Below, in pieces: positions 6,036 through 53,250 of a DNA stretch of 64,000 bases. The notes under the pieces are model-generated. The model was not told where the DNA came from. It ran no database searches and was given only the letters and a program-made list of their open reading frames with translations. Position 1 is the stretch's first letter. Each line of letters begins with the position of its first letter. Source of the DNA: Candidatus Eisenbacteria bacterium (GTDB taxonomy: Bacteria; Eisenbacteria; RBG-16-71-46); contig JADLBL010000020.1 of the NCBI GenBank assembly GCA_020847735.1, forward strand, positions 381,632-445,631, in the 5' to 3' direction. Both the position numbers and the translations under genes were made by a program.

Positions 6036-6746
6036 ATGTCCCGTGCGCTGAGGAACACACCCCGAATGCCGAAGCTCGCCGCAGCGCTCGCTCTCGCCGG
6101 CTGCCTGGCGGGCTCCTCCGCCTTCGGCGGCACCAACGTGAAGGGCACCCTGTGGCTGTCGGCGGGCGCCCGCGAGGCGTCCCGGCACGCGGAAGGGACC
6201 GCCGCGCGGCAGCAGAAAAGCGCCGGCGAAGGAGTCGTCTGGGTCGAGAAGATTCCCGCCGAACTCGAACGCGCGCTCGCCGATCCGCCGCGCGGCTGGT
6301 TCGTCTTCTGGAAGCCGAAGGCCGATCCGCCGTTGCCCCGGGTCGGGGAGCGCGACGACCGCTTCTCGCCGAGGGTGCTCGCGGTGCCCGCGGGCACGAG
6401 CGTCGAGTTCGCGAACCGTGACCGCCTCTATCACAGCGCCTTCAGCGTCTCGGGTGCGAAACGATTCGACCTCGGCAAGGCGCCGCCCGGACGGCGCGAC
6501 ACGCTCGAGTTCGGACGCGCCGGCGTCGTCAACCTGCACTGCGAGATCCACCCGAAGGCCGTCGGCTACGTCGTGGTGACACCGAACCGCGCCTACGCCA
6601 CGCCGGACGCCTCCGGGCGCTTCCGCCTGCCGAGGCTGCCGGCGGGACGCTACGTACTGCATGCCTGGCACCCGCGCCTGGGCGAGCTCAGCCTGCCGTT
6701 CAACGTTCCCCGGCGCGGCACGGTCGAACTCAACCCCACCTTCTAG
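6036..6746 (+). CDS. Secreted cupredoxin-like protein, copy 1 (MauL-like)
   Basis: The 236-residue protein has an N-terminal export signal with a candidate lipobox LAGC (residues 20-23). A cupredoxin-type beta fold (about 108-185) carries the copper-ligand pattern H133 (YHSAFS), C169 and H172 (HCEIH). A short carboxypeptidase-regulatory-like strand pair (about 186-225) ends in LHAWHP. Related proteins are annotated as methylamine-utilisation or plastocyanin-like. The axial ligand position after CxxHxx is Ala175 rather than Met. A GGAGG 9 nt upstream supports the ATG at 6036. The kinase gene starts 12 nt downstream. It is a paralogue of the protein at 52576-53250. An electron carrier or a copper/redox sensor for the kinase are both possible. 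Confidence 0.8.
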   Translation: MSRALRNTPRMPKLAAALALAGCLAGSSAFGGTNVKGTLWLSAGAREASRHAEGTAARQQKSAGEGVVWVEKIPAELERALADPPRGWFVFWKPKADPPLPRVGERDDRFSPRVLAVPAGTSVEFANRDRLYHSAFSVSGAKRFDLGKAPPGRRDTLEFGRAGVVNLHCEIHPKAVGYVVVTPNRAYATPDASGRFRLPRLPAGRYVLHAWHPRLGELSLPFNVPRRGTVELNPTF

Positions 6747-6758
6747 GACGAACCGCAC

Positions 6759-8585
6759 GTGCGCCTCGGACTCCGCTGGAAGATCCTGCTGCTGACGGTG
6801 CTCACGCCGGTCTCGCTCGCCGTCGCGACGCTCGTGATGGTGGACCGCGACGTGGCCGAGCACGTGGATGCCTCGAGCCTGCACGAAAACCTCGGCCACT
6901 CGGCCGCGGTCTTCGAGGGCATGCTCGCCACCCGCATGCGGGCGCTCGAGGGTGGCGCGCTCGTGGTCGCGCAGGACCCGCGCTTCTTCTCGCTGCTCAT
7001 GCTCGGCTTGGACCAGCGCGACGCGCGCTTCGACGCGACCGTGCGGGGCATGGCCCACGACTTCAACGGCATCACCCAGACCGACGTCTTCGAGGTCTTC
7101 GACCGCAGGGGCAGGCTCGTGACCTCGGTGGGCGAGTCGAAGTCCTCGCCCGACGCGCGCAAGGCGCTCGTGGCCCGCGCGCTCGGCGGCGAGGTCACGA
7201 CCGGCGTGCTCGCCGAGGGCCGCACGCACTACCAGGCGGTGGCGGTGCCGGTGCGCGCCGATGGCCGGCAGGTCGGCGTGCTGATGCTGGGCGCGGAGAT
7301 CGGCACGGCGCTCGCTTCCGACCTGCGGACGCAGATGCGCTGCGAGGTGTCGTTCCTCTCCGGTCGTGCCATCACCGGCACGACGCTGCCGGACGCCTCC
7401 GACCGCCAGAAGCTTCTCGACGCGCTCAACCAGATCCAGCTCGGACCCGACACGAACCCGGTCCGGCTCGGGCTGCTGCGCGTGCACGGGGCCCGCGAGT
7501 ACCTGACCCTGGTGCGCCGCATCCCCGGAACTTCGGCGAGCGCGATGCAGTTCTACGTGCTGCAGCGCGCGTTCGATCCCGAGGCGGCGTTCCAGAAGGC
7601 GATCCGCAACGACCTCGTCGCCCTCGCCGCCGTCGCTCTCATGCTCGCCATCGCCACGAGCCTGATCTTCAGCGAGCAGATCGTGCGGCCGCTGCAGAAG
7701 CTCGTGCTCGGTGCGAAGGAGATGGAGGCCGGCAACTACGAGCACCCGATCGAAGTGCGCCGCGACGACGAGGTGGGCTACCTCGCCGACCAGTTCACGC
7801 GCATGCGCGCGCGCGAACAGGCCTACGTGAAGAGTCTCGAGCAGGCGACGAGGCTGAAGAGCGAGTTCATCAGCATCGCCTCGCACGAGCTGCGCACCCC
7901 GATCAGCGTGCTGTCCGGCTATCGCGACCTGCTCGCCGAGGGCAGCCTCGGACCGCTGAGCCCGAGGCAGTCGAGGGTCGTCGAGTCCATGCACGAATAC
8001 CTGGAGCGGCTCGGGCGGGTCGCCGAGGACGCGGCGATGGTCGCGGAGATGCGCAACGAGCGCCTGTCGCTCGATCGCAAGTCGGTGCCGGTGCGCTCGA
8101 TCGTGCAGGTGGCCGTCGAGGCCGCCCGGCAGTCGGCGGCCGGACGCGCGGTCGAGGTCGCGACCTCGATCTCGGCGCCCGAGGCGAAGGTGGAGGTGGA
8201 CCACCAGGCGCTGGTTCAGGCCCTCACGCACCTGATCACCAACGGCGTGCGCTTCACGCCGGACGGCGGGCGCGTGGAGGTCCGCGCGGACATCGAGGAG
8301 GACCAGCTGCGGATCGTCGTGGCCGACACCGGGGTCGGCATGAGCGAGGGCAGCGTCGAATCGCTGCGCGCCCACGGCGCGGCCCAGCGCGACGCCGCGC
8401 ATCACCGATCGTCGGTCGGCCTCGAGTTCGGCTCCGGCGGGCTGGGGCTCGGATTCTCGCTCGCCCGCGGCATCGTCGCCGCGCACGGCGGGCGCATCGA
8501 GATCGAGAGCCGCACGGGCCACGGCAGCACGTTCACCATTCTCGTGCCCGTGGGCGGCGAACAGGAGCTTCGGGCCGCGGCCTGA
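6759..8585 (+). CDS. Membrane histidine kinase with Cache-like sensor, copy 1
   Basis: The 608-residue kinase has a membrane segment at 8-27, a periplasmic Cache-like sensor (about 30-275), a second membrane segment (about 285-304) and HAMP (about 305-358). HisKA follows with the phospho-acceptor H376 (ASHELRTP), then an HATPase domain with N, G1 (DTGVGM) and G2 boxes near the C-terminus. The GTG start lies 12 nt after the cupredoxin stop, so the two are co-transcribed. No response regulator is adjacent. It is a paralogue of the kinase at 50760-52574, beginning with the same MRLGLR.KILL sequence, and both partner a cupredoxin-like protein. I infer that the secreted partner presents the signal. 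Confidence 0.9.
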   Translation: MRLGLRWKILLLTVLTPVSLAVATLVMVDRDVAEHVDASSLHENLGHSAAVFEGMLATRMRALEGGALVVAQDPRFFSLLMLGLDQRDARFDATVRGMAHDFNGITQTDVFEVFDRRGRLVTSVGESKSSPDARKALVARALGGEVTTGVLAEGRTHYQAVAVPVRADGRQVGVLMLGAEIGTALASDLRTQMRCEVSFLSGRAITGTTLPDASDRQKLLDALNQIQLGPDTNPVRLGLLRVHGAREYLTLVRRIPGTSASAMQFYVLQRAFDPEAAFQKAIRNDLVALAAVALMLAIATSLIFSEQIVRPLQKLVLGAKEMEAGNYEHPIEVRRDDEVGYLADQFTRMRAREQAYVKSLEQATRLKSEFISIASHELRTPISVLSGYRDLLAEGSLGPLSPRQSRVVESMHEYLERLGRVAEDAAMVAEMRNERLSLDRKSVPVRSIVQVAVEAARQSAAGRAVEVATSISAPEAKVEVDHQALVQALTHLITNGVRFTPDGGRVEVRADIEEDQLRIVVADTGVGMSEGSVESLRAHGAAQRDAAHHRSSVGLEFGSGGLGLGFSLARGIVAAHGGRIEIESRTGHGSTFTILVPVGGEQELRAAA

Positions 8586-41320: not shown

Positions 41321-42094
41321 TCACGCCCCGAGGCGGGCCTTGAGCTGGCGCGCCCGCGCCCGGGAGACGGGGACCTCGGTGCGCGCCTCGTCGTTCAGTT
41401 GCAGCCGCCAGGTGCCGGCGAACCCCGGCCGCAGCGCGGCCGCGCGGTCGAGGTTGGCGATGGCGCCCCGGTGCACGCGCACGAAACGCGCCGGGTCGAG
41501 CCGGCGCTCGAGCTCGTCGAGCGTGAAGTTCACGTAGTGCCTCGCGCCCGCGGTCGCCGCGAAGACGAGCTTGTCCTCGGCGCCGAACCACAGGACGTCC
41601 TCGGCCCTGACGATCAGCTGCCGGGTGCCGAGCCGCACGGTGAAACGGTCGAGCCAGCGGTCGGCGCGACCGCCCGGGCCCACGGCGGCGAGCAGTTCCT
41701 CGAGCCGGCGCGAGAGCTCGGCGGGCTGCGCCAGCCCGCGGCGCGCGCGCGCGAGCGCCGCGGCGAGCCGCTCGGCGCGGAACGGCTTGAGCAGGTAGTC
41801 CACCGCGTTCTCCTCGAACGCGCGCACCGCGTACTGATCGTAGGCGGTGACGAACACGATCGCGGGACGCGCCTCGAGCCGGGCGAGCAGGGCGAAGCCG
41901 TCCTCGCCAGGCATCTGCACGTCCAGCAGCACGAGGTCGGGACGCACCGCCTCGATCACGCGTTCGGCTTCGGGCACCGAACCGGCCTCGCCGACCACGA
42001 CCGTGCCGCCGATCTCGCCGAGCATGCGGCGGGCGCGGGCGCGGGCGAGGGGCTCGTCGTCCACGAGCACGACCTTCAGCGGGGCATCGCTCAT
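41321..42094 (-). CDS. LytTR-type response regulator
   Basis: The 257-residue protein has a receiver domain with the acidic pocket D12/D13, phospho-acceptor D58 (VLLDVQMPG) and conserved K near 108 (YLLKPF). A LytTR DNA-binding domain follows (about 150-255; FVRVHRGAIANLDR). It is the last gene of a unit that begins with a LytS-like kinase at 46272, the expected cognate partner. Only 10 nt separate it from the TonB-receptor stop, so signalling and receptor expression are linked. Confidence 0.94.
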   Translation of the reverse strand: MSDAPLKVVLVDDEPLARARARRMLGEIGGTVVVGEAGSVPEAERVIEAVRPDLVLLDVQMPGEDGFALLARLEARPAIVFVTAYDQYAVRAFEENAVDYLLKPFRAERLAAALARARRGLAQPAELSRRLEELLAAVGPGGRADRWLDRFTVRLGTRQLIVRAEDVLWFGAEDKLVFAATAGARHYVNFTLDELERRLDPARFVRVHRGAIANLDRAAALRPGFAGTWRLQLNDEARTEVPVSRARARQLKARLGA

Positions 42095-42104
42095 GCGGCG
42101 CGTT

Positions 42105-44324
42105 CTACCACGTCAGCGAGACGCCCGCCACGATCAGCCGGCGCGAGAAGTAGGACTCGGTGGCGACGCGGTGCGAGTAGTCGGCGTCGTAGGTCCACTC
42201 GAGCACGTTCTTCGTGTCGAGAACGTTCATGCATTCCGCGTAGAAAACGCACACGCCGCTCGGCGGCAGGCCGCCGGCGCGCGGCAGCGAGAACAGCCGC
42301 GTCAGGCGCAGGTCGAGCCGGTTGTAGGCCGGCATCTCGCCCGAGCCATGCTCGCCGTAGACGGGATGCCAGATCGCGCGGCCCGGGTCCCAGGTCGCGC
42401 CGACGACCGGCGTGTAGGGCCGGCCGCTCGAGTACGACCAGCGCGCGCCGTACATCCAGCGAATGGACTGCTGCCACTGCCCGACCAGCGTGAGCGAGTG
42501 GCGCACCGAACTCGCCGAGCGCACCTCGTACGGGTCGTCGTCCACGCGCCGGCGCGCGTCGAGCAGGCCGTACGACACCCAGCCGTTCAGCGACTGCCAG
42601 TTGCCCTGCGCGAACACGTCCAGCCCGCGGGCGAAGCCGGTGCCGGCGGCGCGGAACCAGGTGAGGGAGTCGGTGATCGGCAGCCCGCGGTATCGCTTGT
42701 GATAGGCCTCGAGCCGCACGTTGCCGAAATCCGACTTCCACTCGTAACCGGCGATGGCGTGGTCGGCGTAGGCGTCGCTCAGGTCCGGGTTGCCGTGTCG
42801 CGGGTCGAGCCTCGTCGGGTCGGGCAGCTGGTGGTAGCGGCCGCCCGCGAAGCGCACCGTCTGGTGTTCGTCCACGCGCCAGGCGAGCGCGCCGCGCGGG
42901 TCCACGACCCACTCGCCGGTCCGGGCCGCGCCGTCCACGCGTGCGCCCAGCGTCGCGTACAGCGGGCCCCACAGGCGCAGCTTGTCCTCGGCGTAGATTC
43001 CCGGCTGGCGTCGGCGCGTGCCGTAGGCGTATTCGCGCGTCGGCGCGCCCGCGCCGAGATCGGTGCTGTCGGCGGCCTGGTGACCCGAGAGCTCCGCGCC
43101 ACGATCGCGCCACGCCGCGCCGAAGGACAGCTCGTGTCGGGACGAGACGGGCCACACGAAGTCGGCCTGCGCCTGCGTCGAGCGCTCGCTGCGCCGGCCG
43201 CCGAACGCCGAGTAGCCCCAATCGTCCGCGTAGCGCTGCGTCGTCACGTTCGCGCGCACCGCGACCTTGCCGCGGATCGCGTCGTGCAGGGTCAAAGCCG
43301 CGAAATGGTTCGCGGCGTCCGAGGAGTACAGGCCGCGGACGTTGAGCGCCGACGAATAGACGCCGATGCGGTCGGTCGAGACGATGTCGAAGAGCGACAG
43401 CTTGCCGCTTCCCGAATAGCGCCACAGGAGCTTGGCGACGCCGTTGAAGCTGTTCGGGACCGACTCGTAGTCCTCCGGCGAGCCGTAGAGGCGGAAGAGC
43501 ACCGGCAGCAGGCTCTGGTTGACGCTGACGAGCGCCGAGACCTTGTCCGGCACGAGCGCCCACGTCGCCGAGCCGCCCGCGCCCGCGAAATTGCCGCCGA
43601 CGCTCACGGTGCGCAGGTTCATCGGGTCCTGCGTCTCGATGTCGAGCACGCCGCTCATGGCGCCGCCGTACTTCGCGGTGAATCCGCCGCTCGAGAAGAA
43701 CGCGCTCTTGAGCATGTAGGCGTCGAGAATCCCGAACAGCCCGCCCGAGGCGCCTTCGTAGTGGTACGGGTGCCCGATCTCGGCGCCGTCCACGCGGATC
43801 ACGGTCTCGGAGGGGTCGCCGCCGCGCACGTACAGCGCCGCGCCTTCGGTCGGAGCGTTGATGCCCGGAAGCGCGCGCAGCGACTGGAAGATGTCGGCCG
43901 CGCCGCCCGGGGTCATGTACACGTCCATGCGGCGGACGACGGCGCCCTCGCTCCTGCCGGCCTTGCCGAACGACGACGCCGAGACGTTGACCTCGGCGAC
44001 GGGCACCGGCTCGAGGTCCAGCGTGACCCGCAGCGGCGCGTTCACGGCCCCGACGGTGACCGACAGCCGTGCCGCCGAATAGCCGATCTGGGCGATGACC
44101 AGCGCGGCGGGTCCCTCGGGCAGCTCCAGGGTGAAGCGTCCCCCGGCGTCGGTCACGGCACCACGCTTGAGCGCCGGGACGGTGACGTTCGCGAACTCGA
44201 CCGGCTGACCCTTGTGGTCCAGGACCGTGCCGCTGATCGTCGCCGCGAGCGCGCCCGGCGCCGCAAGGACGAGCGCGAGCAGGACGGGCGCGAATCGCGC
44301 GAGTGCCGGCAGGCGACCGTTCAC
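42105..44324 (-). CDS. TonB-dependent outer-membrane receptor with N-terminal regulatory-like domain
   Basis: The 739-residue protein has a signal peptide (to about residue 24) and a carboxypeptidase-regulatory-like beta domain (about 26-110). The plug domain (about 130-230; LRALPGINAPTEGAALYVRG, DGAEIGHPYHY) and a 22-strand-type barrel ending in an aromatic-rich ILV..VSLTW C-terminus follow. The substrate is unknown. The GTG start overlaps the stop of the TPR gene (GTGA). Its position between a kinase and its regulator suggests that the receptor is part of, or is controlled by, the same signalling circuit. Confidence 0.92.
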   Translation of the reverse strand: MNGRLPALARFAPVLLALVLAAPGALAATISGTVLDHKGQPVEFANVTVPALKRGAVTDAGGRFTLELPEGPAALVIAQIGYSAARLSVTVGAVNAPLRVTLDLEPVPVAEVNVSASSFGKAGRSEGAVVRRMDVYMTPGGAADIFQSLRALPGINAPTEGAALYVRGGDPSETVIRVDGAEIGHPYHYEGASGGLFGILDAYMLKSAFFSSGGFTAKYGGAMSGVLDIETQDPMNLRTVSVGGNFAGAGGSATWALVPDKVSALVSVNQSLLPVLFRLYGSPEDYESVPNSFNGVAKLLWRYSGSGKLSLFDIVSTDRIGVYSSALNVRGLYSSDAANHFAALTLHDAIRGKVAVRANVTTQRYADDWGYSAFGGRRSERSTQAQADFVWPVSSRHELSFGAAWRDRGAELSGHQAADSTDLGAGAPTREYAYGTRRRQPGIYAEDKLRLWGPLYATLGARVDGAARTGEWVVDPRGALAWRVDEHQTVRFAGGRYHQLPDPTRLDPRHGNPDLSDAYADHAIAGYEWKSDFGNVRLEAYHKRYRGLPITDSLTWFRAAGTGFARGLDVFAQGNWQSLNGWVSYGLLDARRRVDDDPYEVRSASSVRHSLTLVGQWQQSIRWMYGARWSYSSGRPYTPVVGATWDPGRAIWHPVYGEHGSGEMPAYNRLDLRLTRLFSLPRAGGLPPSGVCVFYAECMNVLDTKNVLEWTYDADYSHRVATESYFSRRLIVAGVSLTW

Positions 44325-45142
44325 TTCGCGTCTCGGGCGGGAGCGCCCTTCGCGGCCAGCTCCTTTTCGGCTCCGGGCAGCAGCACGTACCTGGTCCAGG
44401 CGTGGCCGGGATTCCGCGCGAGCACCTCGCGGAAGCGCGCGCGCGCCGCCGACCAGTCGCCGAGCCGCGACGCGCAGATGCCGCTCCACACGAGCACGTC
44501 GTCCCGCCCCCAGTCGATCGAAGTGCTGTCGCCTTCCGCGGGCGGTGCCGCGGCGGCCGCCGCCACGGCGCGCTCGAGGATCGGCCGGGCGGCCTGCGGC
44601 CCGCCGCCGACTTCCTTCGGCTTGTACAGCGTGCCCAGGCCCTTGAGCAGCAGCACGCGCGGGTTGTCGGGTTCGAGTCCCATGGCCCGTCCGTACCCTT
44701 CCTCCATCTCGGCGCCCAGCGCCATTCCGGCCTGCGGGCTCAGGAAGCGGAACGCCAGGCCCTGCAGGCCGGCGCGCAGCGCGACCGCGTCGGCGAACCT
44801 CGGGCGCGCCGCGATCGCGCGATCGCACGCCGCGATGCCCTCCTTGCAGAGCTGCCTTGCCGCCGCGCTCTCGCTGTCGGGCAGTACCGGGACGAGCCGC
44901 CAGTCGGCGAGCGCCAGCCAGTAGGCGAGCTCAGGTGAAGCGGGGTCGCCGGCGCGCAGCAGCGCGAACGCGTCCCTCGCCTGGCGCAGCCCGGGAGCGC
45001 TGCCTTCCGAGACGGCGGCCGCGAGCTGACGGCGGGCCGCGGCGAGCCCGGCCGCGTCGGCGTGCGCCTTCGCGTCGGCGAAAGCGGGCAAGGGCGCGAG
45101 CAGCGCGGCGGTCACGAGCATCGGCAGCAGGTTCATGCGCAT
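44321..45142 (-). CDS. Exported TPR-like protein
   Basis: The 273-residue protein has a signal peptide (MRMNLLPMLVTAALLAPLPAF, cleavage near ADA) and then helical repeats of TPR/Sel1 character (AYWLALADWR, ACDRAIAARPRFADAVALRAG, YGRAMGLEPDNPRVLLLKGL, ARFREVLARNPGHAWTRYV). It is probably periplasmic and may scaffold protein contacts with the receptor encoded next. GGAG lies 8 nt before the ATG at 45142. A second ATG at 45136 overlaps the kinase stop exactly (ATGA) and would remove two residues. Confidence 0.85.
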   Translation of the reverse strand: MRMNLLPMLVTAALLAPLPAFADAKAHADAAGLAAARRQLAAAVSEGSAPGLRQARDAFALLRAGDPASPELAYWLALADWRLVPVLPDSESAAARQLCKEGIAACDRAIAARPRFADAVALRAGLQGLAFRFLSPQAGMALGAEMEEGYGRAMGLEPDNPRVLLLKGLGTLYKPKEVGGGPQAARPILERAVAAAAAAPPAEGDSTSIDWGRDDVLVWSGICASRLGDWSAARARFREVLARNPGHAWTRYVLLPGAEKELAAKGAPARDAK

Positions 45143-46272
45143 GGGTCGAACTCCGGGTCGAGGGTGGAGGGGTGGGTCGGAGGAACGGTGGGTTCGAGCG
45201 GCAGACGCACGGTGATGCGCGTGCCCTCGCCCGGAGCCGAGGCGACGGTCAGCGCGTGGCCTTCGCCCGCGAGGCGCAGTCGCTCGCGGACGCTCTCGAG
45301 GCCGACGCCGTGCCCGCTCGGCTGCGCGCCCGGCGTGATGCCGGGGCCGTCGTCGGCGATCGTCACGAGCAGCGAGTCCCCGTCCCGACGCGCCTCCAGC
45401 CTCACCGTGCCGCCCTCGGCGCGCTCGGCGGCCGCGTAGCGCACGGCGTTCTCGAGCAGCGGCTGGAGGAGCAGCCCGGGCACGGGAACGGCCTCGAGCC
45501 CGGGCTCGATGGCTTCCTCGTAGCGGAGCCGCGGGCCCAGACGTGCCTGTTCGATCGACAGATAGGCGCGCAGGAACTCCAGTTCGTCGCCGAAGCGGGT
45601 CGGCTGGCCGTTCGCGGAGGCGAGCGAGTGCCGGAAGACGTCGGCGAGGCGCGTGACGACGTCCTCCGCGGCGCGCGGGTCCTCGCCGATCAGGGCGGCG
45701 ATCGTGTTGAGCGTGTTGAAGAGGAAGTGAGGGTGGACCTGGGCGCGCAGCGCCCGGTACTCGGCCTGAGCCAGTTCGGCGCGCATGCGCTCGACCTGCA
45801 GCGCCCGCTGGACCGAAACGCGGTAGAAGACGCGCGCGTACACGATCCCGCCGACCAGCAGCGAGAAAAGCGCCGAATAGAGCGCCGTGATGCGCCACGC
45901 CGCGGGGCCGTCGAGAAAGCCGTGCCAGACGAAGCGGTCCACGAGGACCGCGGAGAGCAGCGCGGCCGACATGCTGGTTCCCATGAACAGCGCGCCCTCG
46001 CGCAGCCACGGGTAGCGGCCCGCGCCCGCGCGGGCCCGCAGGCCGGGCGCGACCAGCCGCTGGATGACGAGGACGCTGAGCCGGATCACGTACGAGAAGA
46101 CCAGCGCGATGAGGTACGAGATCCGGTAGGCGGGCCACGTCCCACCCCAGAGCGTGCCGAAGAACAGCGCGAACGGCACCGCCCACAGGATCGGCGTCCA
46201 CAGGACTTCCCACGGAAACGGCCGGCGGCCGTGCGCGGGCGGGACGGAGGGGAACGAGCTCATGCGCGCCAT
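45133..46272 (-). CDS. LytS/YehU-type membrane sensor histidine kinase
   Basis: The 379-residue kinase has four membrane segments in the first 150 residues and no large periplasmic domain. The His_kinase domain follows (QVHPHFLFNTLN, phospho-acceptor H182), then an HATPase region with N box LLQPLLENAVRYA and G box DDGPGI. It is the first gene of the unit with the TPR protein, TonB receptor and LytTR regulator. The stop codon overlaps the TPR start. An ATG at 46263 is a possible alternative start. Confidence 0.93.
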   Translation of the reverse strand: MARMSSFPSVPPAHGRRPFPWEVLWTPILWAVPFALFFGTLWGGTWPAYRISYLIALVFSYVIRLSVLVIQRLVAPGLRARAGAGRYPWLREGALFMGTSMSAALLSAVLVDRFVWHGFLDGPAAWRITALYSALFSLLVGGIVYARVFYRVSVQRALQVERMRAELAQAEYRALRAQVHPHFLFNTLNTIAALIGEDPRAAEDVVTRLADVFRHSLASANGQPTRFGDELEFLRAYLSIEQARLGPRLRYEEAIEPGLEAVPVPGLLLQPLLENAVRYAAAERAEGGTVRLEARRDGDSLLVTIADDGPGITPGAQPSGHGVGLESVRERLRLAGEGHALTVASAPGEGTRITVRLPLEPTVPPTHPSTLDPEFDPCA

Positions 46273-46344
46273 TGGACGACCGATTTCCCGGACCGCAAAC
46301 GCCCGGCCCGACGAACCGTCGTTCGGGCGGGACGAACGGTAGCG

Positions 46345-46361
46345 GCCCGTCGCGAACGGGC
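46345..46361 (-). terminator. Hairpin after the SpoIIE-type phosphatase gene
   Basis: GCCCGT (46345-46350) pairs with ACGGGC (46356-46361) with a 5-nt loop, 2 nt beyond the phosphatase stop on the minus strand. There is no T-run. It would separate that transcript from the kinase operon. Confidence 0.4.
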
Positions 46362-46363
46362 GC

Positions 46364-47572
46364 TCAGCCCCGCGAAACAGGTCGCTCGAGCACGCGCAAC
46401 ACCATCACGGTGATGTCGTCCCCGGGTTCGACCCCGTCGAGCCAGGCGCGCACGCCGGCGAGCACGTGCTCGACGAGCTGCTCCGCGGACAGCTCCCGGG
46501 GCGCCGCGTCGAGCAGGGCGTAGAGTCGTTCCTCGCCCAGCATCTCGCCGTCTTCACGCTCGGCCTCGGTCACGCCGTCGGTGTAGAAGACGATCCGGTC
46601 GCCGGGCGCGAGCGTGAGCGCCTCCTCTTCGTAGACCGGGCCGTCGAGCATGCCGACGACGCAGCCGCCCCGCTCGAGCAGCTCGCGCTCGCCGCGGGCG
46701 CGCTGCAGCACGGGAAAGTTGTGCCCGGCGTTCGTGAACCGGAACCCCAGCGTCGGCTCGTCCACCACGGCGAGGAAGAAGGTCGCGAACTGCCCGGTGC
46801 TGACGCGCTGGCAGGCCAGTTCATTGAGCCGTCGCATCATCGCCGCCGGGGACTCCACCACGCCCGCCTGCGTGCGCACCGAAGCCTGCAGCATGCTGGA
46901 GAGCAGCGCCGCGGGCACGCCCTTGCCCGACACGTCGGCGATCGCGAGCACCACGTGTTCCTCGCCGACCGGGACGACGTCGTAGAAGTCTCCGCTCACC
47001 TGCTTCGAGGAGACGTTGACGGCATGGACCTCGATGCGCGAGCGCTGCGGAAACTCCGAGAGCAGGAACGAACGCTGGATGCGGCGCGCGAGCAGCAGTT
47101 CACGGTCGGCTCCCGACTTCTCCATGGCTTCGCGGTGGAACATGACCGCGAGCGAGACGCCGAGCATGAGGGTTCCGAACAGCAGGCAGTAGACCAGCAC
47201 CGTGATCAGCGAGCGAATCCCCGAGAGGAATCCCGGCACGAACGTGTAGTTGAGAATCAGGGCCGCGGCGATGGCGGCGAGGATCGCGAGGCCCATGTAC
47301 GTGGCCGAAAGCGTGATCGTGCCCCGTGTCGCGCTCCGCGCGTTCGCGAGGATCCCCGGCTGGAGGAAGTGCTTCGTCGTCCACGACGCGAGCATCTCGA
47401 GGATGGTGAACACGAACGAGACGGCGTAGAAGCCGCCGAACGCGGCGAACGGCGAGCCTGAGACGATCACGAAGAAGCCGGCGAACGGCAGCGAGACGAG
47501 CGGCACCATCAGCACCATCCGCAGCAGGTCCGCCAGCGGTCCGCGGGTCCGGGCGGGCTTCTTCCTGGCCAC
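46364..47572 (-). CDS. Membrane-bound SpoIIE/RsbU-type PP2C serine phosphatase
   Basis: The 402-residue protein has four membrane segments in about 15-150, a short helical linker, and then a PPM-type SpoIIE domain (about 185-400). Metal ligands are visible in SGDFYDVV, IADVSGKGVPAALL and VFYTDGVTEA. Such phosphatases dephosphorylate anti-sigma-factor antagonists in partner-switching stress pathways, but no such partner is in the window. The GTG start is supported by AGGAGG 7 nt upstream. It lies 12 nt after pdxH, so the two are co-transcribed. Confidence 0.92.
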   Translation of the reverse strand: MARKKPARTRGPLADLLRMVLMVPLVSLPFAGFFVIVSGSPFAAFGGFYAVSFVFTILEMLASWTTKHFLQPGILANARSATRGTITLSATYMGLAILAAIAAALILNYTFVPGFLSGIRSLITVLVYCLLFGTLMLGVSLAVMFHREAMEKSGADRELLLARRIQRSFLLSEFPQRSRIEVHAVNVSSKQVSGDFYDVVPVGEEHVVLAIADVSGKGVPAALLSSMLQASVRTQAGVVESPAAMMRRLNELACQRVSTGQFATFFLAVVDEPTLGFRFTNAGHNFPVLQRARGERELLERGGCVVGMLDGPVYEEEALTLAPGDRIVFYTDGVTEAEREDGEMLGEERLYALLDAAPRELSAEQLVEHVLAGVRAWLDGVEPGDDITVMVLRVLERPVSRG

Positions 47573-48470: not shown

Positions 48471-49544
48471 ATGCCCAAGCGAATGTCGCTGCCGACGCTC
48501 CTGTTGCTCGCCCTGCTGCCGGCGTTCGTGCCCGCGACGACCGGCGCCGCGCCCTCCGATTCGATCGGCGTGCTCGTCATGGCCCACGGCGGCGAGCCCG
48601 AATGGAACGCCGCCGTCGAGAAGACCGCCGAAGCCCTGCGCGCGAAGTGGCCCACCGAGGTCGCGTTCGGAATGGCGGACCCGGCGACACTGCAGTCGGG
48701 CGTGAACGCGCTCGAGGCGAAGGGCGTCCGCCGCATCGTGGTCGCGCGGCTGTTCCTCTCGGACGGCTCGTTCCTGCACCAGACCGAATACCTGCTCGGT
48801 CTGCGCCCGGACGCCCCGGAGAAGTTCCTCCTGCACTCGCATGGCGGTGCGCACGCGGCGGGTGGCGGAGCGATGGCCGGCGCCGGTCAGGATGCGCACG
48901 CCGGGCACGGGATGCCCATGGCGCACGGCGCGCACGCGGGCCACGACGGTCACCCGGAGGCGGACAAGGCGCAAGCGCCGGCGGCGCCCTCGCCGATCAC
49001 GCACACGGCGAGCCTCGCGATCACGCGTGGCGGCCTCGACGAGTACGCCGGCACGGGCGAAATCCTGGCGGAACGCGCCCGGGCCCTGTCGAAGGACCCC
49101 CGCACGGAGGTCGTCGTCCTGCTGGCGCACGGCGCGGGCGACGAGGCCGAGAACGACGCCATCCTCTCCCGACTGTCCGGGTACGCCGGCGCGATCCGGA
49201 CCGCGGCGGGATTCGCGGACGTGCGCGGCTTCACCCTGCGCGAGGACTGGCCGGCTTCCCGGGCGCCCTCCGAGCGGGCGATCCGGGACTACGTCGCGGC
49301 CCACGCGCGCTCGGGGCAGCGCGTGCTGGTCGTGCCCTTCCGGCTGTTCGGATTCGGTCCCTATCGCGACGTGCTGAAGGGCCTCGAGTACCGCTCGGAT
49401 GGAACCGGCCTGCTGCCGCACGCCGCGGTGGCGGAATGGCTCGCCTCGCGCGTGCGCGCGACGCTCGATCAGCAGGGCTGGGCGAAGGCCGCGGACGCCG
49501 GCGAAGTCATCGGCGGCGCTTCGGCGGCGCGTTCGGAGCGCTGA
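48471..49544 (+). CDS. Secreted CbiX-like chelatase-fold protein with His-rich linker
   Basis: The 357-residue protein has a signal peptide (about 1-26) and two CbiX/sirohydrochlorin-chelatase-like half domains, each with the active-site-type histidine: VLVMAHGGEPEW (H39) and VVVLLAHGAGDE (H220). Between them is a linker (about 122-161) with nine histidines and several methionines (HSHGGAH, HAGHGMPMAHGAHAGHDGH). Cytoplasmic CbiX inserts cobalt into sirohydrochlorin. A secreted form with a metal-binding linker points instead to periplasmic cobalt/nickel/copper binding or tetrapyrrole handling. It converges on the porin of the second cupredoxin-kinase cassette. Confidence 0.85.
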   Translation: MPKRMSLPTLLLLALLPAFVPATTGAAPSDSIGVLVMAHGGEPEWNAAVEKTAEALRAKWPTEVAFGMADPATLQSGVNALEAKGVRRIVVARLFLSDGSFLHQTEYLLGLRPDAPEKFLLHSHGGAHAAGGGAMAGAGQDAHAGHGMPMAHGAHAGHDGHPEADKAQAPAAPSPITHTASLAITRGGLDEYAGTGEILAERARALSKDPRTEVVVLLAHGAGDEAENDAILSRLSGYAGAIRTAAGFADVRGFTLREDWPASRAPSERAIRDYVAAHARSGQRVLVVPFRLFGFGPYRDVLKGLEYRSDGTGLLPHAAVAEWLASRVRATLDQQGWAKAADAGEVIGGASAARSER

Positions 49545-49562: not shown

Positions 49563-50744
49563 TCAGAACTCGAGCGACAGCTGCGACAGGAACAGGTCGA
49601 AGGACTGCTGGCCGTCCGCCTGGTCCAGCCGCGTGCGCTGCCAGGAGGCCTTGAGCGCGGCTTTCCGCGAGAGCCGGTAGCCGAGTCCGCAGTCGAGCCG
49701 GTCCACGTCGTCGTCCCACGGGCGCGTGACCGCGCCGGCGGTGAGGTCGGAGTGGCGCATGAGCCCGGCGCGCGCGGCCAGCCACACACCCGAGTCGAAG
49801 CCGTAGCGCGCTTCCGCGTAGCCGCCGGTCGAACGAAGCGTGCCGCAGTAGGCGGTCTCGAACGCGTTCGAGAAGGCCTCGGCGCGCAATTCCACCCGGC
49901 CGCGCTCGAAGGCGAAATCGGCCATGCCGAGCGTCTGGAGATAGTCGGCCTCGGTCCGGTTTGTGGGCAGCGAGTAGCGGACCCACTTGCCGAGATACGA
50001 CCCCTGCGCCCCCGAGAGCCCGAAGCGGAAGCCCGCGGTGGGCACGAAGCCGAGGCGCCCCTGCACGGCCTTGCCGTGGTTCACGTCCTCTCCAGGGGAG
50101 CCCCAGCCGGGCGCGCTGTTCGTCATCCCGAGCGAGAACTCGAAGGGCGCGACGCTGCCGAGCGCGACGAGGCCGAAGTCCCAGCCGTAGTCGTCCACGA
50201 CCGGCATGCCCGGCGCGCCGGGTCCGCCGCCGTAGTCGGCGCCTTCCCAGCCGGTGCCGGCGGCCGCCAGCAAGGCCGCCGGGGACAGCGGCACCTCGTC
50301 CCAGCGCAGCGAACCGTGATGCTGGTACATGAGCGGCGCGGTGATGAGCGGATTGCGGTTCGAGTAGGTGCGCGGAGCCCACACACCGATCGGCGCGGGG
50401 ATCTTGCCCGCCATGAGGTGCAGGTCGCGCTGCGGCCACGGCGTGACGAGCGCGTAGGCTCCATCCAGGGCGAAATCGTCCTGCGAGAAGATGACCTGCG
50501 TGAAGACGTCGATGTTCGGCGAGGCGCTGCCCTCGACGAACAGCCGTACTCGCTGCGATTCGAGCGGAGAGCTCTCGTCGTCGAAGCGGGCGATCTCGGC
50601 CGCATGCGTGTCGTTGTGCAGGACCAGGTCCAGCAGGCCGCGCACGCGCAGGCGCGGAGTCTCCTCGGCGCGCAGCGGCGCGGTGGCGAGCAGCGCGCCG
50701 GCCGCCAGCAGGGTCAGGGAAGTGAGCCTCGTCCGGGTTCGCAT
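49563..50744 (-). CDS. Porin-like outer-membrane beta-barrel protein
   Basis: The 393-residue protein has a signal peptide (about 1-26, ending APLRAEE). Alternating beta strands and an aromatic C-terminal residue (LFLSQLSLEF) are typical of outer-membrane porins. The start of the mature part (RVRGLLDLVLHNDT, QRVRLFVEGSASPNIDVFTQVIF) resembles OprO/OprP-like and uncharacterised porins. It is the third gene after the cupredoxin and kinase, beginning 15 nt after the kinase stop, so it may be the output or the import route for the ligand sensed. Confidence 0.82.
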   Translation of the reverse strand: MRTRTRLTSLTLLAAGALLATAPLRAEETPRLRVRGLLDLVLHNDTHAAEIARFDDESSPLESQRVRLFVEGSASPNIDVFTQVIFSQDDFALDGAYALVTPWPQRDLHLMAGKIPAPIGVWAPRTYSNRNPLITAPLMYQHHGSLRWDEVPLSPAALLAAAGTGWEGADYGGGPGAPGMPVVDDYGWDFGLVALGSVAPFEFSLGMTNSAPGWGSPGEDVNHGKAVQGRLGFVPTAGFRFGLSGAQGSYLGKWVRYSLPTNRTEADYLQTLGMADFAFERGRVELRAEAFSNAFETAYCGTLRSTGGYAEARYGFDSGVWLAARAGLMRHSDLTAGAVTRPWDDDVDRLDCGLGYRLSRKAALKASWQRTRLDQADGQQSFDLFLSQLSLEF

Positions 50745-50759: not shown

Positions 50760-52574
50760 TCAGGCGGCGGCCGCGCCGGGACTCTGGACCGCGGGCAGCA
50801 CGAGGGTGAACGTGCTGCCCTGGTTCTCACGGCTTTCGGCCCGCAGCCAGCCGTCGTGCGCGCGGGCGATGCCGCGCGCGATGGACAGGCCGAGGCCGAG
50901 CCCGGCCGAATTGAACTCGAGGGTGTTGGACGAGTGGTGGTTCGCCGAGTCGCGAACCGGTGACTGGCGTTCGAGCAGCTGTTCCAGCCGGCGGGGGGGG
51001 ATGCCGACGCCGGTGTCGCGCACCTCGATGTACAGTTGCCGCTCGTCGGAGCGCGCCCAGACCAGCACCTGTCCGCCGTCGGGCGTGAAGCGGATGCCGT
51101 TGCGGACGAGATGTCCGACTGCGTCGCGCAGCCGCGCGCCATCCACGTCGGCGAACACCGCGCCGGCGCTGATCGCGCACTCGACCCGCACGGCGCGCCC
51201 GCGCGCCTCGGCCAGGGCGTCCGCGACGGCGCCGCGCAGGATCGGCTCGAGGTCCTGGCGCTCGCGCTCGAGGACGAGGCGGTCCTCGCTGATCTGCGCC
51301 ATGCGCGTGGCGTCCTCGGCGATGCGGGAGAGCGTCGAGACGCTCCGGCCGATGGCCTCGAGCGCGCGCCGCTGGGCGTCGCTCACCGGGCCGAGCGCGC
51401 CGCCGCCGAACAACTCCTGGAAGCCCTGGATGACCGTGATCGGGGTGCGCAGCTCGTGCGAGGCGACGGACAGGAACTCACGCTTGACCCGCATGCTCTC
51501 CTGCAGGCTTTCGACGACCTTGCGTTGCTGTGCCCGCATGTCCACGAACCGTTCGGCGAGGTAGCTCACCTCGTCGCTGCCCCGGGCTTCGAGGGGAAAA
51601 TCGTAGTCCCCGCGTTCCATCGCCTCGGCGGCGCGCACGATCCGGTCGATGGGCGAAGTGATCCGCTGCGCGATCACCAGCCCGGCCGCCAGGGCGAGGG
51701 CGACGGCGACCAGACCCAGAGCCAGCAGGCCGGTGTGAATGCGGCGCAACACCGCGGTCTCGTCACGCAGCGAGCGCTGCATGACGTAGCCGTGCCGGAC
51801 CGCGACGGGGGAATCCGGCAGCGGACGCGCCACCGCGAGCCAGGTGTCGCCGCCGGCCGCGTGCTCGTGAACTCCCGGCGGGGGTTCCCCCCTGCGGGCG
51901 CTGCGCTCGGAGGCGAGCGCCGCGGCGTGCGCGGCCGCGAGGTCGGCGGGCTCCTGCAGCGTCGTGCCCGTGGCGCGGCCGTCAACCAGGAACGTCACCT
52001 CGCTGCGCGACAGTTCGCGCAGGTCGCGCGCGAGCGCGCCGTCCACGGCGGTCCCGAGCACCAGCAGTCCGACGACACGCCCGTCAGCGAGCACCGGGGT
52101 GCCCACGACCTGCAGCTGGATGCCGCCCTCGCCGACCGCCCACGACTCGGTGTGGCCGTTCGCCGCGGTGGACGCGAGCCACTCGGGGGAGAGCGCATAG
52201 CGCCCGACGCTGGCGAGCACGTGTCCGCGCGCATCGAGCACCGCGAAGACGTCCGCGCGCGTGATGCGCTCGAAGTCGGCCGCCACGCCCGCGACGGTCG
52301 CGCGGAACTGCTCGTCCTTCCAGGACGCCGGCAGCGACACGACCGAGAAGAACTTCGGGTCGCGCACGATCACCCCGCCTTCGACGGCGAGGGCCCCGGC
52401 GCGCGCGCGCAGCATGTTCTCGAACGAGGCCGAGGCGCGCTGAAGGTCGTCGCGCACCTGGCGGTGCACCTGCTCCGAGACGTCCTGATCCACGCGCCAC
52501 AGCGAGGCCAGCGTCAGGGAGAGCAGCGGCGGCACCGTGAACAGCAGGATCTTGCCGCGAAGGCCGAGGCGCAT
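50760..52574 (-). CDS. Membrane histidine kinase with Cache-like sensor, copy 2
   Basis: The 604-residue kinase has the same plan as the one at 6759: membrane segment (8-27), Cache-like periplasmic sensor (about 30-275), second membrane segment (about 282-302) and HAMP. HisKA follows with H373 (ASHELRTP), then HATPase (DTGVGI). The sequences align from the first residue. The second half of the sensor differs most, with an insertion around 205-245, which suggests a different ligand. It starts 1 nt after the cupredoxin stop and is followed by a porin. No response regulator is adjacent. Confidence 0.92.
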   Translation of the reverse strand: MRLGLRGKILLFTVPPLLSLTLASLWRVDQDVSEQVHRQVRDDLQRASASFENMLRARAGALAVEGGVIVRDPKFFSVVSLPASWKDEQFRATVAGVAADFERITRADVFAVLDARGHVLASVGRYALSPEWLASTAANGHTESWAVGEGGIQLQVVGTPVLADGRVVGLLVLGTAVDGALARDLRELSRSEVTFLVDGRATGTTLQEPADLAAAHAAALASERSARRGEPPPGVHEHAAGGDTWLAVARPLPDSPVAVRHGYVMQRSLRDETAVLRRIHTGLLALGLVAVALALAAGLVIAQRITSPIDRIVRAAEAMERGDYDFPLEARGSDEVSYLAERFVDMRAQQRKVVESLQESMRVKREFLSVASHELRTPITVIQGFQELFGGGALGPVSDAQRRALEAIGRSVSTLSRIAEDATRMAQISEDRLVLERERQDLEPILRGAVADALAEARGRAVRVECAISAGAVFADVDGARLRDAVGHLVRNGIRFTPDGGQVLVWARSDERQLYIEVRDTGVGIPPRRLEQLLERQSPVRDSANHHSSNTLEFNSAGLGLGLSIARGIARAHDGWLRAESRENQGSTFTLVLPAVQSPGAAAA

Positions 52575-52575
52575 G

Positions 52576-53250
52576 TCAGAAGGACAGCGCGAGAGTCCGG
52601 TCTTCCGCGAGATCCACCTCGCGTTCGAACTCGCCGAAGTCGGGGTGCCAGACGTGCAGCGTATAGCGGCCGGCGGGCACGTCCGGCAACGCGAAGGATC
52701 CGTCGTCCCGCGGCTGCGTGTAGGCCCGGTTGGGCGCGACGAGCACGAACGCGGCCATGTCGGAGTGGATGTCGCAGTAGACGTTCACGAGACCCGACTT
52801 CGGAAACGTGACGCTGCGCGAGTGCCCCTTCGGGTACTTGCCCAGGTCGAAACGCCGAATGGTCGAGACGCTGAAGACGTTGTGGTAGATCGGGTCCTGG
52901 TTCGGGAAGTCCACCGTGCCGCCGGCGAACACCGCCACCACGCGCGGGACGAAGCACTGGTCCTTCTGCGCGAGCCGCGGCCGCGCCGGCGGGGTGATGA
53001 GCGAGTCGGCCGCGATGTCCACGTGCTCGAACCACAGCACCGCGTCGCTCACCGCGCCGCGCGGCGCCATGCGGTGGGCCGCCATCGAACCGGCCTGTCC
53101 CGGATAGGCGTTCAGGTGGCGGGCGGGCGGCGGAGCCGCGGGCACGGCCAGCGTCCCGCGCAACACCGATCCCTGCGCGGGAGGGGTGACGAGCGGGAGC
53201 AGCGCGAGCGCCAGCGGGACGATCGCAGTCAGCCAGGATGACGACTTCAT
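52576..53250 (-). CDS. Secreted cupredoxin-like protein, copy 2
   Basis: The 224-residue protein has a signal peptide (about 1-27) and a cupredoxin domain with the full type-1 copper set H123 (YHNVFS), C159, H162 and M165 (YCDIHSDM). A regulatory-like beta segment ends in LHVWHPDFGEF. Shared blocks with copy 1 (FSVS..RRFDLGK, APNRAY, LP..PAGRY.LH.WHP) show they are paralogues. It is the first gene of the cupredoxin-kinase-porin unit. A role as periplasmic copper or redox carrier feeding the kinase is inferred. Confidence 0.84.
   Translation of the reverse strand: MKSSSWLTAIVPLALALLPLVTPPAQGSVLRGTLAVPAAPPPARHLNAYPGQAGSMAAHRMAPRGAVSDAVLWFEHVDIAADSLITPPARPRLAQKDQCFVPRVVAVFAGGTVDFPNQDPIYHNVFSVSTIRRFDLGKYPKGHSRSVTFPKSGLVNVYCDIHSDMAAFVLVAPNRAYTQPRDDGSFALPDVPAGRYTLHVWHPDFGEFEREVDLAEDRTLALSF

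Follow-up and report, generated by a model that had tools for sequence, protein, structure and literature searches.

A secreted cupredoxin encoded beside a dCache_3-HAMP receptor: a recurrent, duplicated candidate sensory unit with exchangeable outputs in Eisenbacteria and other bacteria

Two loci in the window analysed here, a 64,000-nucleotide stretch of a Candidatus Eisenbacteria genome, each encode a secreted cupredoxin followed immediately by a transmembrane histidine kinase with a dCache_3-HAMP input region. The cupredoxin and this input region are encoded side by side in at least six lineages, with four classes of output domain, and apparently constitute a widespread and undescribed signalling unit. 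That the two proteins function together and were duplicated as a unit, as the preliminary description of the window had proposed, is strongly supported by sequence comparison, and the best inference is that the cupredoxin acts as the sensor partner of the receptor.

Copy 1, on the forward strand, consists of a gene for a 236 amino acid secreted cupredoxin with a C-terminal carboxypeptidase-regulatory-like domain (6036-6746) and, 12 nt after its stop codon, a gene with a GTG start for a 608 amino acid histidine kinase with intact H-, N- and G-boxes (6759-8585). Copy 2 lies on the reverse strand and encodes a 224 amino acid secreted cupredoxin, also with a C-terminal regulatory-like domain (53250-52576), and, after 1 nt, a 604 amino acid histidine kinase (52574-50760). 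Both kinases begin with the shared N-terminus MRLGLR-KILL and contain dCache, HAMP, HisKA and HATPase_c domains in this order, all above the Pfam cutoffs (dCache_3: 30.0 and 38.5 bits; cutoff 25.7). The kinases share 43% amino acid identity over their full length (E 2e-135) and the cupredoxins 39% over 172 aligned amino acids (E 7e-46). The window was initially described as holding two full paralogous pairs at 6036-8585 and 50760-53250, with the cupredoxin gene first, a gap of 1-12 nt and kinases alike in start and domain order, and all of this holds. The further designation as a two-gene cassette fits copy 1, which lacks a barrel gene, but not copy 2, which has a third member directly downstream of the kinase gene (49563-50744, reverse strand; 393 amino acids). 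Its product is modelled with 16 long strands, in a structure that matches those of OmpF, OmpC and the Campylobacter MOMP, and on this basis is an outer-membrane beta-barrel of the general porin fold.

No response regulator gene adjoins either kinase, in agreement with the preliminary description, and the nearest receiver domain (41753-42073) is located ~8.7 kb from the copy 2 kinase. The window kinases would thus have to signal to an unlinked response regulator. The LytTR-type response regulator that contains this receiver (41321-42094) was considered as a partner of the kinases and rejected, as two LytS-like genes adjoin it; these encode membrane proteins and, together with the regulator, occupy 41321-47572 on the reverse strand (all read by eye), and the regulator probably belongs with them. 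A CbiX-like protein with a probable signal peptide and a His/Met-rich insert is encoded on the forward strand (48471-49544), tail-to-tail with the barrel gene. It was likewise rejected as a member of the unit, its homologue being absent from the relatives' loci examined.

A within-class search, for which the two window cupredoxins were the only queries, identified a sensor gene directly downstream in 20 of the 21 strong relatives with enough contig, the exception being L004/L057. Sampling was widened to the Gemmatimonadota, Pseudomonadota, Verrucomicrobiota and the small phylum of L047, and 225 distinct family members were graded by their closeness to the window type. Across the five sampled groups, a sensor adjoins 121/137 close cupredoxins with room for one (E<1e-45), 30/48 intermediate cupredoxins and 2/32 weak cupredoxins with room, where the alignment behind the wider searches (A2) was seeded mostly with linked loci. 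At least three of the sixteen exceptions among the close cupredoxins (L039, L220 and L276) are technical misses of ORF calling, while in L047 a second cupredoxin follows the receptor instead. Conversely, 27 of 30 sensor-region matches in 47 genomes of the class adjoin a cupredoxin, and the three Cache kinases lacking one all belong to a single family. Rare adjacency elsewhere, one of the two outcomes that the preliminary description would have taken as a refutation, is therefore not what is seen. Units with the order cupredoxin, receptor, cupredoxin occur in L047 (2063-5302) and L036 (4794-8336), the two flanking cupredoxins possibly representing two ligand heads for one receptor.

The output domain, by contrast, varies among the units. 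By Pfam assignment, the cupredoxin, Cache and HAMP input carries one of four outputs. Histidine kinases are the output in Eisenbacteria, Ignavibacteria and many Verrucomicrobiota, whereas most Gemmatimonadota units, and one or more from Eisenbacteria, have a Ser/Thr protein kinase. Several groups have a class III nucleotide cyclase, and Pseudomonadota a GGDEF-EAL module. The output class switched at least eight times on the cupredoxin tree and at least seven times on the sensor tree of 147 pairs. As the outputs were exchanged while the input was kept, the constant element is the cupredoxin plus Cache-HAMP, not the cupredoxin plus histidine kinase. The term orphan kinase, apt within the window, hence does not describe a unit that elsewhere drives Ser/Thr kinases, cyclases and GGDEF-EAL proteins. 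It is mainly because the linkage to Cache-HAMP survives this exchange that the cupredoxin is placed on the input side.

One Eisenbacteria genome (G007, family f1) harbors a Gemmatimonadota-like Ser/Thr kinase unit (L086, 4130-6776) together with histidine-kinase units of the same system. In Burkholderiales, including Caballeronia grimmiae (NZ_CP084273.1) and Comamonas aquatica (NZ_CP104280.1), the unit is annotated as a 'methylamine utilization protein' and an 'EAL domain-containing protein'. This pair, known by annotation only, corresponds to the unit described here, generically named and with a GGDEF-EAL output. No functional study behind the name 'methylamine utilization protein' in Burkholderiales was found, and it likely stems from MauG-type neighbours of cupredoxin units. 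Upstream of one Burkholderiales unit lie genes for a DUF3034 protein and a truncated haemoglobin; the truncated haemoglobin of the Caballeronia operon belongs to group 1.

The model of the copy 2 cupredoxin (mean pLDDT 86.5) displays the Greek-key cupredoxin fold and matches NirK, amicyanin and plastocyanin structures in the PDB, the best matches being NirK and amicyanin, the latter with a TMt of about 0.7. The copy 1 protein, which is 41% identical to the modelled one in a further comparison and has a possible lipobox (LAGC), matches Cupredoxin_1 below the Pfam cutoff (21.9 vs 27 bits). The copy 2 ligands, H123 and C159-x2-H162-x2-M165, have the amicyanin spacing. Copy 1 retains H133, C169 and H172, with A175 at the site of the relatives' axial methionine. 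Apart from the copy 1 clade described below, the H, C, H and M ligands are almost invariant in the family, and the axial ligand is methionine in 146/153 sensor-linked cupredoxins. A second conserved feature is an F-[DE]-[LI] motif, FDLG in copy 2 and likewise F-D-L-G in copy 1, in which the position of D135 is acidic in 150/153 sensor-linked cupredoxins, whereas unlinked ones most often carry asparagine there (37/64). None of the approximately 20 FN-type cupredoxins with room for a sensor adjoins one. Three Planctomycetes records (L050, L051 and L052) join a related cupredoxin domain to an FTR1-type iron permease, each fusion being a single open frame (Pfam was run on L050). A recurrent in-frame TGA in Verrucomicrobial cupredoxins was considered as a selenocysteine codon and rejected, as it is an ordinary terminal stop.

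Trees were built for 44 pairs of the histidine-kinase type and for all 147 pairs of any output, L071 being excluded because its fragment was mis-extracted. Copy 1 groups with the same six loci (L059, L066, L070, L073, L074 and L079), all from the family of the window, in both the cupredoxin tree (support 96/99) and the sensor tree (support 95); the pair was therefore duplicated jointly, ahead of the diversification of the family. The distances in the two trees are correlated among the 44 pairs (r=0.605; shuffle maximum 0.315) and the 147 pairs (r=0.738; maximum of shuffles within output classes 0.480). These mirror-tree coefficients carry no species-tree correction, and more weight is given to the co-duplicated clade and the within-class shuffles; linkage and correlated trees are also expected from vertical inheritance of an operon. 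Taken with an adjacency that recurs in six or more lineages, the agreement between the trees upholds the initial proposal that the two proteins work together; strongly conflicting trees, the other outcome named there as a refutation, are not seen.

The copy 1 clade has diverged in both barrel content and metal site. A barrel gene is found in none of its seven members, vs 14/19 other Eisenbacteria units (Fisher p 0.0012, relatedness ignored), and the axial methionine is kept in 2/7 vs 18/19 (p 0.0018, relatedness ignored). The axial site is occupied by alanine in copy 1 and by glutamate, serine or methionine in its relatives, while L079 lacks a histidine ligand instead. The absence of the axial methionine from copy 1 and several relatives, and of a histidine from L079, means that copper cannot be required by all members. 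On the basis of these substitutions, the metal chemistry of copy 1 may differ, and copy 1 is read as an old paralogue which lost the barrel and the axial methionine and so probably responds to another metal state or signal.

The Cache sensor region itself lacks conserved metal-ligand residues. No column of its alignment contains more than 40% Cys, His or Met, which suggests that the cupredoxin takes over metal handling for the receptor. The two kinases score 97.5 and 107.2 bits against TIGR01386, the NCBIfam model of CusS/CopS heavy-metal sensor kinases, below its cutoff of 292.55. Comparison of the sensor sequence with the PDB returned matches at chance level only, LuxQ among them (E 0.35), and these were given no evidential use.

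Since exchange of the output leaves the linkage between the cupredoxin and its input domain intact, we favor the reading of the cupredoxin as a sensor partner, and consider it probable that the secreted protein is a co-receptor giving a copper or redox signal to the dCache_3-HAMP receptor. The type-1-like cupredoxin would serve as the periplasmic input protein of this transmembrane receptor, binding copper or shifting the redox or occupancy state of its copper. It would dock on the Cache domain in a manner altered by that copper or redox state, and the HAMP domain would pass the change on to the output domain that a given lineage carries, signalling presumably running in this direction. The porin-fold barrel of copy 2 would probably admit the relevant solute into the periplasm. 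The three Cache kinases that lack a neighbouring cupredoxin speak against this reading, as does the location of more distant cupredoxins of the family next to oxidases and oxidoreductases. For a stricter formulation, in which the cupredoxin is a detachable sensor head that informs a metal-free Cache receptor of its copper occupancy or redox state, and in which this input was repeatedly re-wired to histidine kinase, Ser/Thr kinase, cyclic-nucleotide and c-di-GMP outputs, we see the chances as evenly balanced.

A narrower form of the co-receptor explanation, compatible with it, is that the cupredoxin is a sensor partner but that the signal is a redox state, of the respiratory chain, O2 or NO, rather than copper availability. 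Ligands spaced as in amicyanin are suited to reversible cycling between Cu(I) and Cu(II), and the truncated haemoglobin in the Caballeronia operon and the MauG/CCP genes in other units are consistent with such a signal. However, these redox neighbours are sporadic, and the loss of the axial methionine in the copy 1 clade does not agree with a conserved redox potential, such that this form is plausible but somewhat doubtful. Genes for MauG/cytochrome c peroxidase-type diheme proteins are located inside or beside the cupredoxin units of L281 and L306, a possible redox link.

Alternatively, the cupredoxin could be an effector or electron carrier controlled in level or activity by the receptor, with the receptor sensing something else and the genes merely being co-transcribed. 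Copper two-component systems that govern nearby copper proteins exist, and a few units contain or adjoin genes for diheme peroxidases (MauG-like). Distant members of the family are found next to COX1, bd oxidase or Rieske/oxidoreductase operons, a setting most naturally explained by electron carriage. We nevertheless regard this explanation as unlikely, as the link survives Ser/Thr kinase, cyclase and GGDEF-EAL outputs, none of which directly controls the transcription of a neighbour, and as it is the input domain, and no response regulator, with which the cupredoxin is associated. Furthermore, the acidic residue of the sensor-linked cupredoxins is mostly missing from those of the electron-transfer type. 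A related 'FNLG' cupredoxin in L090, L255 and L269, which adjoins a redox gene set, is probably a true electron carrier; the next gene encodes an Fe4S/pyridine-nucleotide oxidoreductase in L090 (Pfam), and L255 and L269 appear similar by eye.

It is less likely still that the unit senses a porin-borne solute and that the cupredoxin, its metal site being vestigial, serves as a structural adaptor. Most relatives of the histidine-kinase type indeed have a barrel homologue in the unit, at either end or between the two genes, and the ligands are eroded in the copy 1 clade, but the H, C, H and M ligands are conserved almost throughout the remaining family, and the Ser/Thr kinase units yielded no barrel gene. 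Finally, chance adjacency or a local quirk, with the duplicate arising from a recent segmental duplication, might be imagined from the presence of just two copies of the sensor region in the whole 3.66 Mb genome, but is refuted by the recurrence of the adjacency in at least six lineages, by copies only about 40% identical that fall into clades older than the family, and by the shared clade and the tree-distance correlation.

No published description of a cupredoxin-Cache receptor pair was found in the full-text literature, a body of text from which subscription papers are mostly absent. If the co-receptor explanation is correct, it would add a new class of input protein, assign a signalling role to a fold seen as an electron carrier and provide a function for a large, misnamed protein family. 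As the unit has four outputs and its six or more lineages include Burkholderiales that can be cultured, the sensed signal could be tested directly in tractable organisms.

The unit falls with the systems composed of a periplasmic co-receptor and a sensor, outside any named family. Copy 2 has the fold and C-x2-H-x2-M spacing of amicyanin, plastocyanin and the cupredoxin domain of NirK, while the window cupredoxins differ from these in an additional N-terminal region and C-terminal regulatory-like domain, in having a receptor rather than an enzyme as partner and, for copy 1, in lacking the methionine. In CusS-type kinases, the periplasmic domain of the kinase itself binds the metal and a response regulator gene adjoins. 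Like CusS, CopS and PcoS, the arrangement proposed here feeds a copper-related signal from the periplasm into a histidine kinase with a HAMP domain, but it differs in its Cache region without conserved Cys, His or Met and, unlike a classical adjacent two-component system, in the lack of a regulator next to the kinase. The CHASE4-GGDEF-EAL proteins PA14_37690 and PA2072 of P. aeruginosa, one of which is reported to bind copper directly (PMC13277305), resemble the Pseudomonadota units in their periplasmic CHASE4/Cache-type domain and GGDEF-EAL output; the metal is, however, on the receptor domain itself, and a cupredoxin is not mentioned in that work. Few sensor kinases are known to receive their signal via a partner protein, and the known partners are periplasmic binding proteins, as in LuxP-LuxQ, TorT-TorS and XylFII-LytS (reviewed in PMC6321045). 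As in these systems, a separate periplasmic protein is encoded, and here also co-inherited, with a transmembrane receptor, and by analogy the loaded protein may likewise work via the periplasmic domain of that receptor. LuxP, TorT and XylFII are, however, sugar-binding-type proteins for small organic ligands, whereas the partner described here lacks the periplasmic binding protein fold of the LuxP family and is instead a type-1-like cupredoxin, part of an input common to four outputs.
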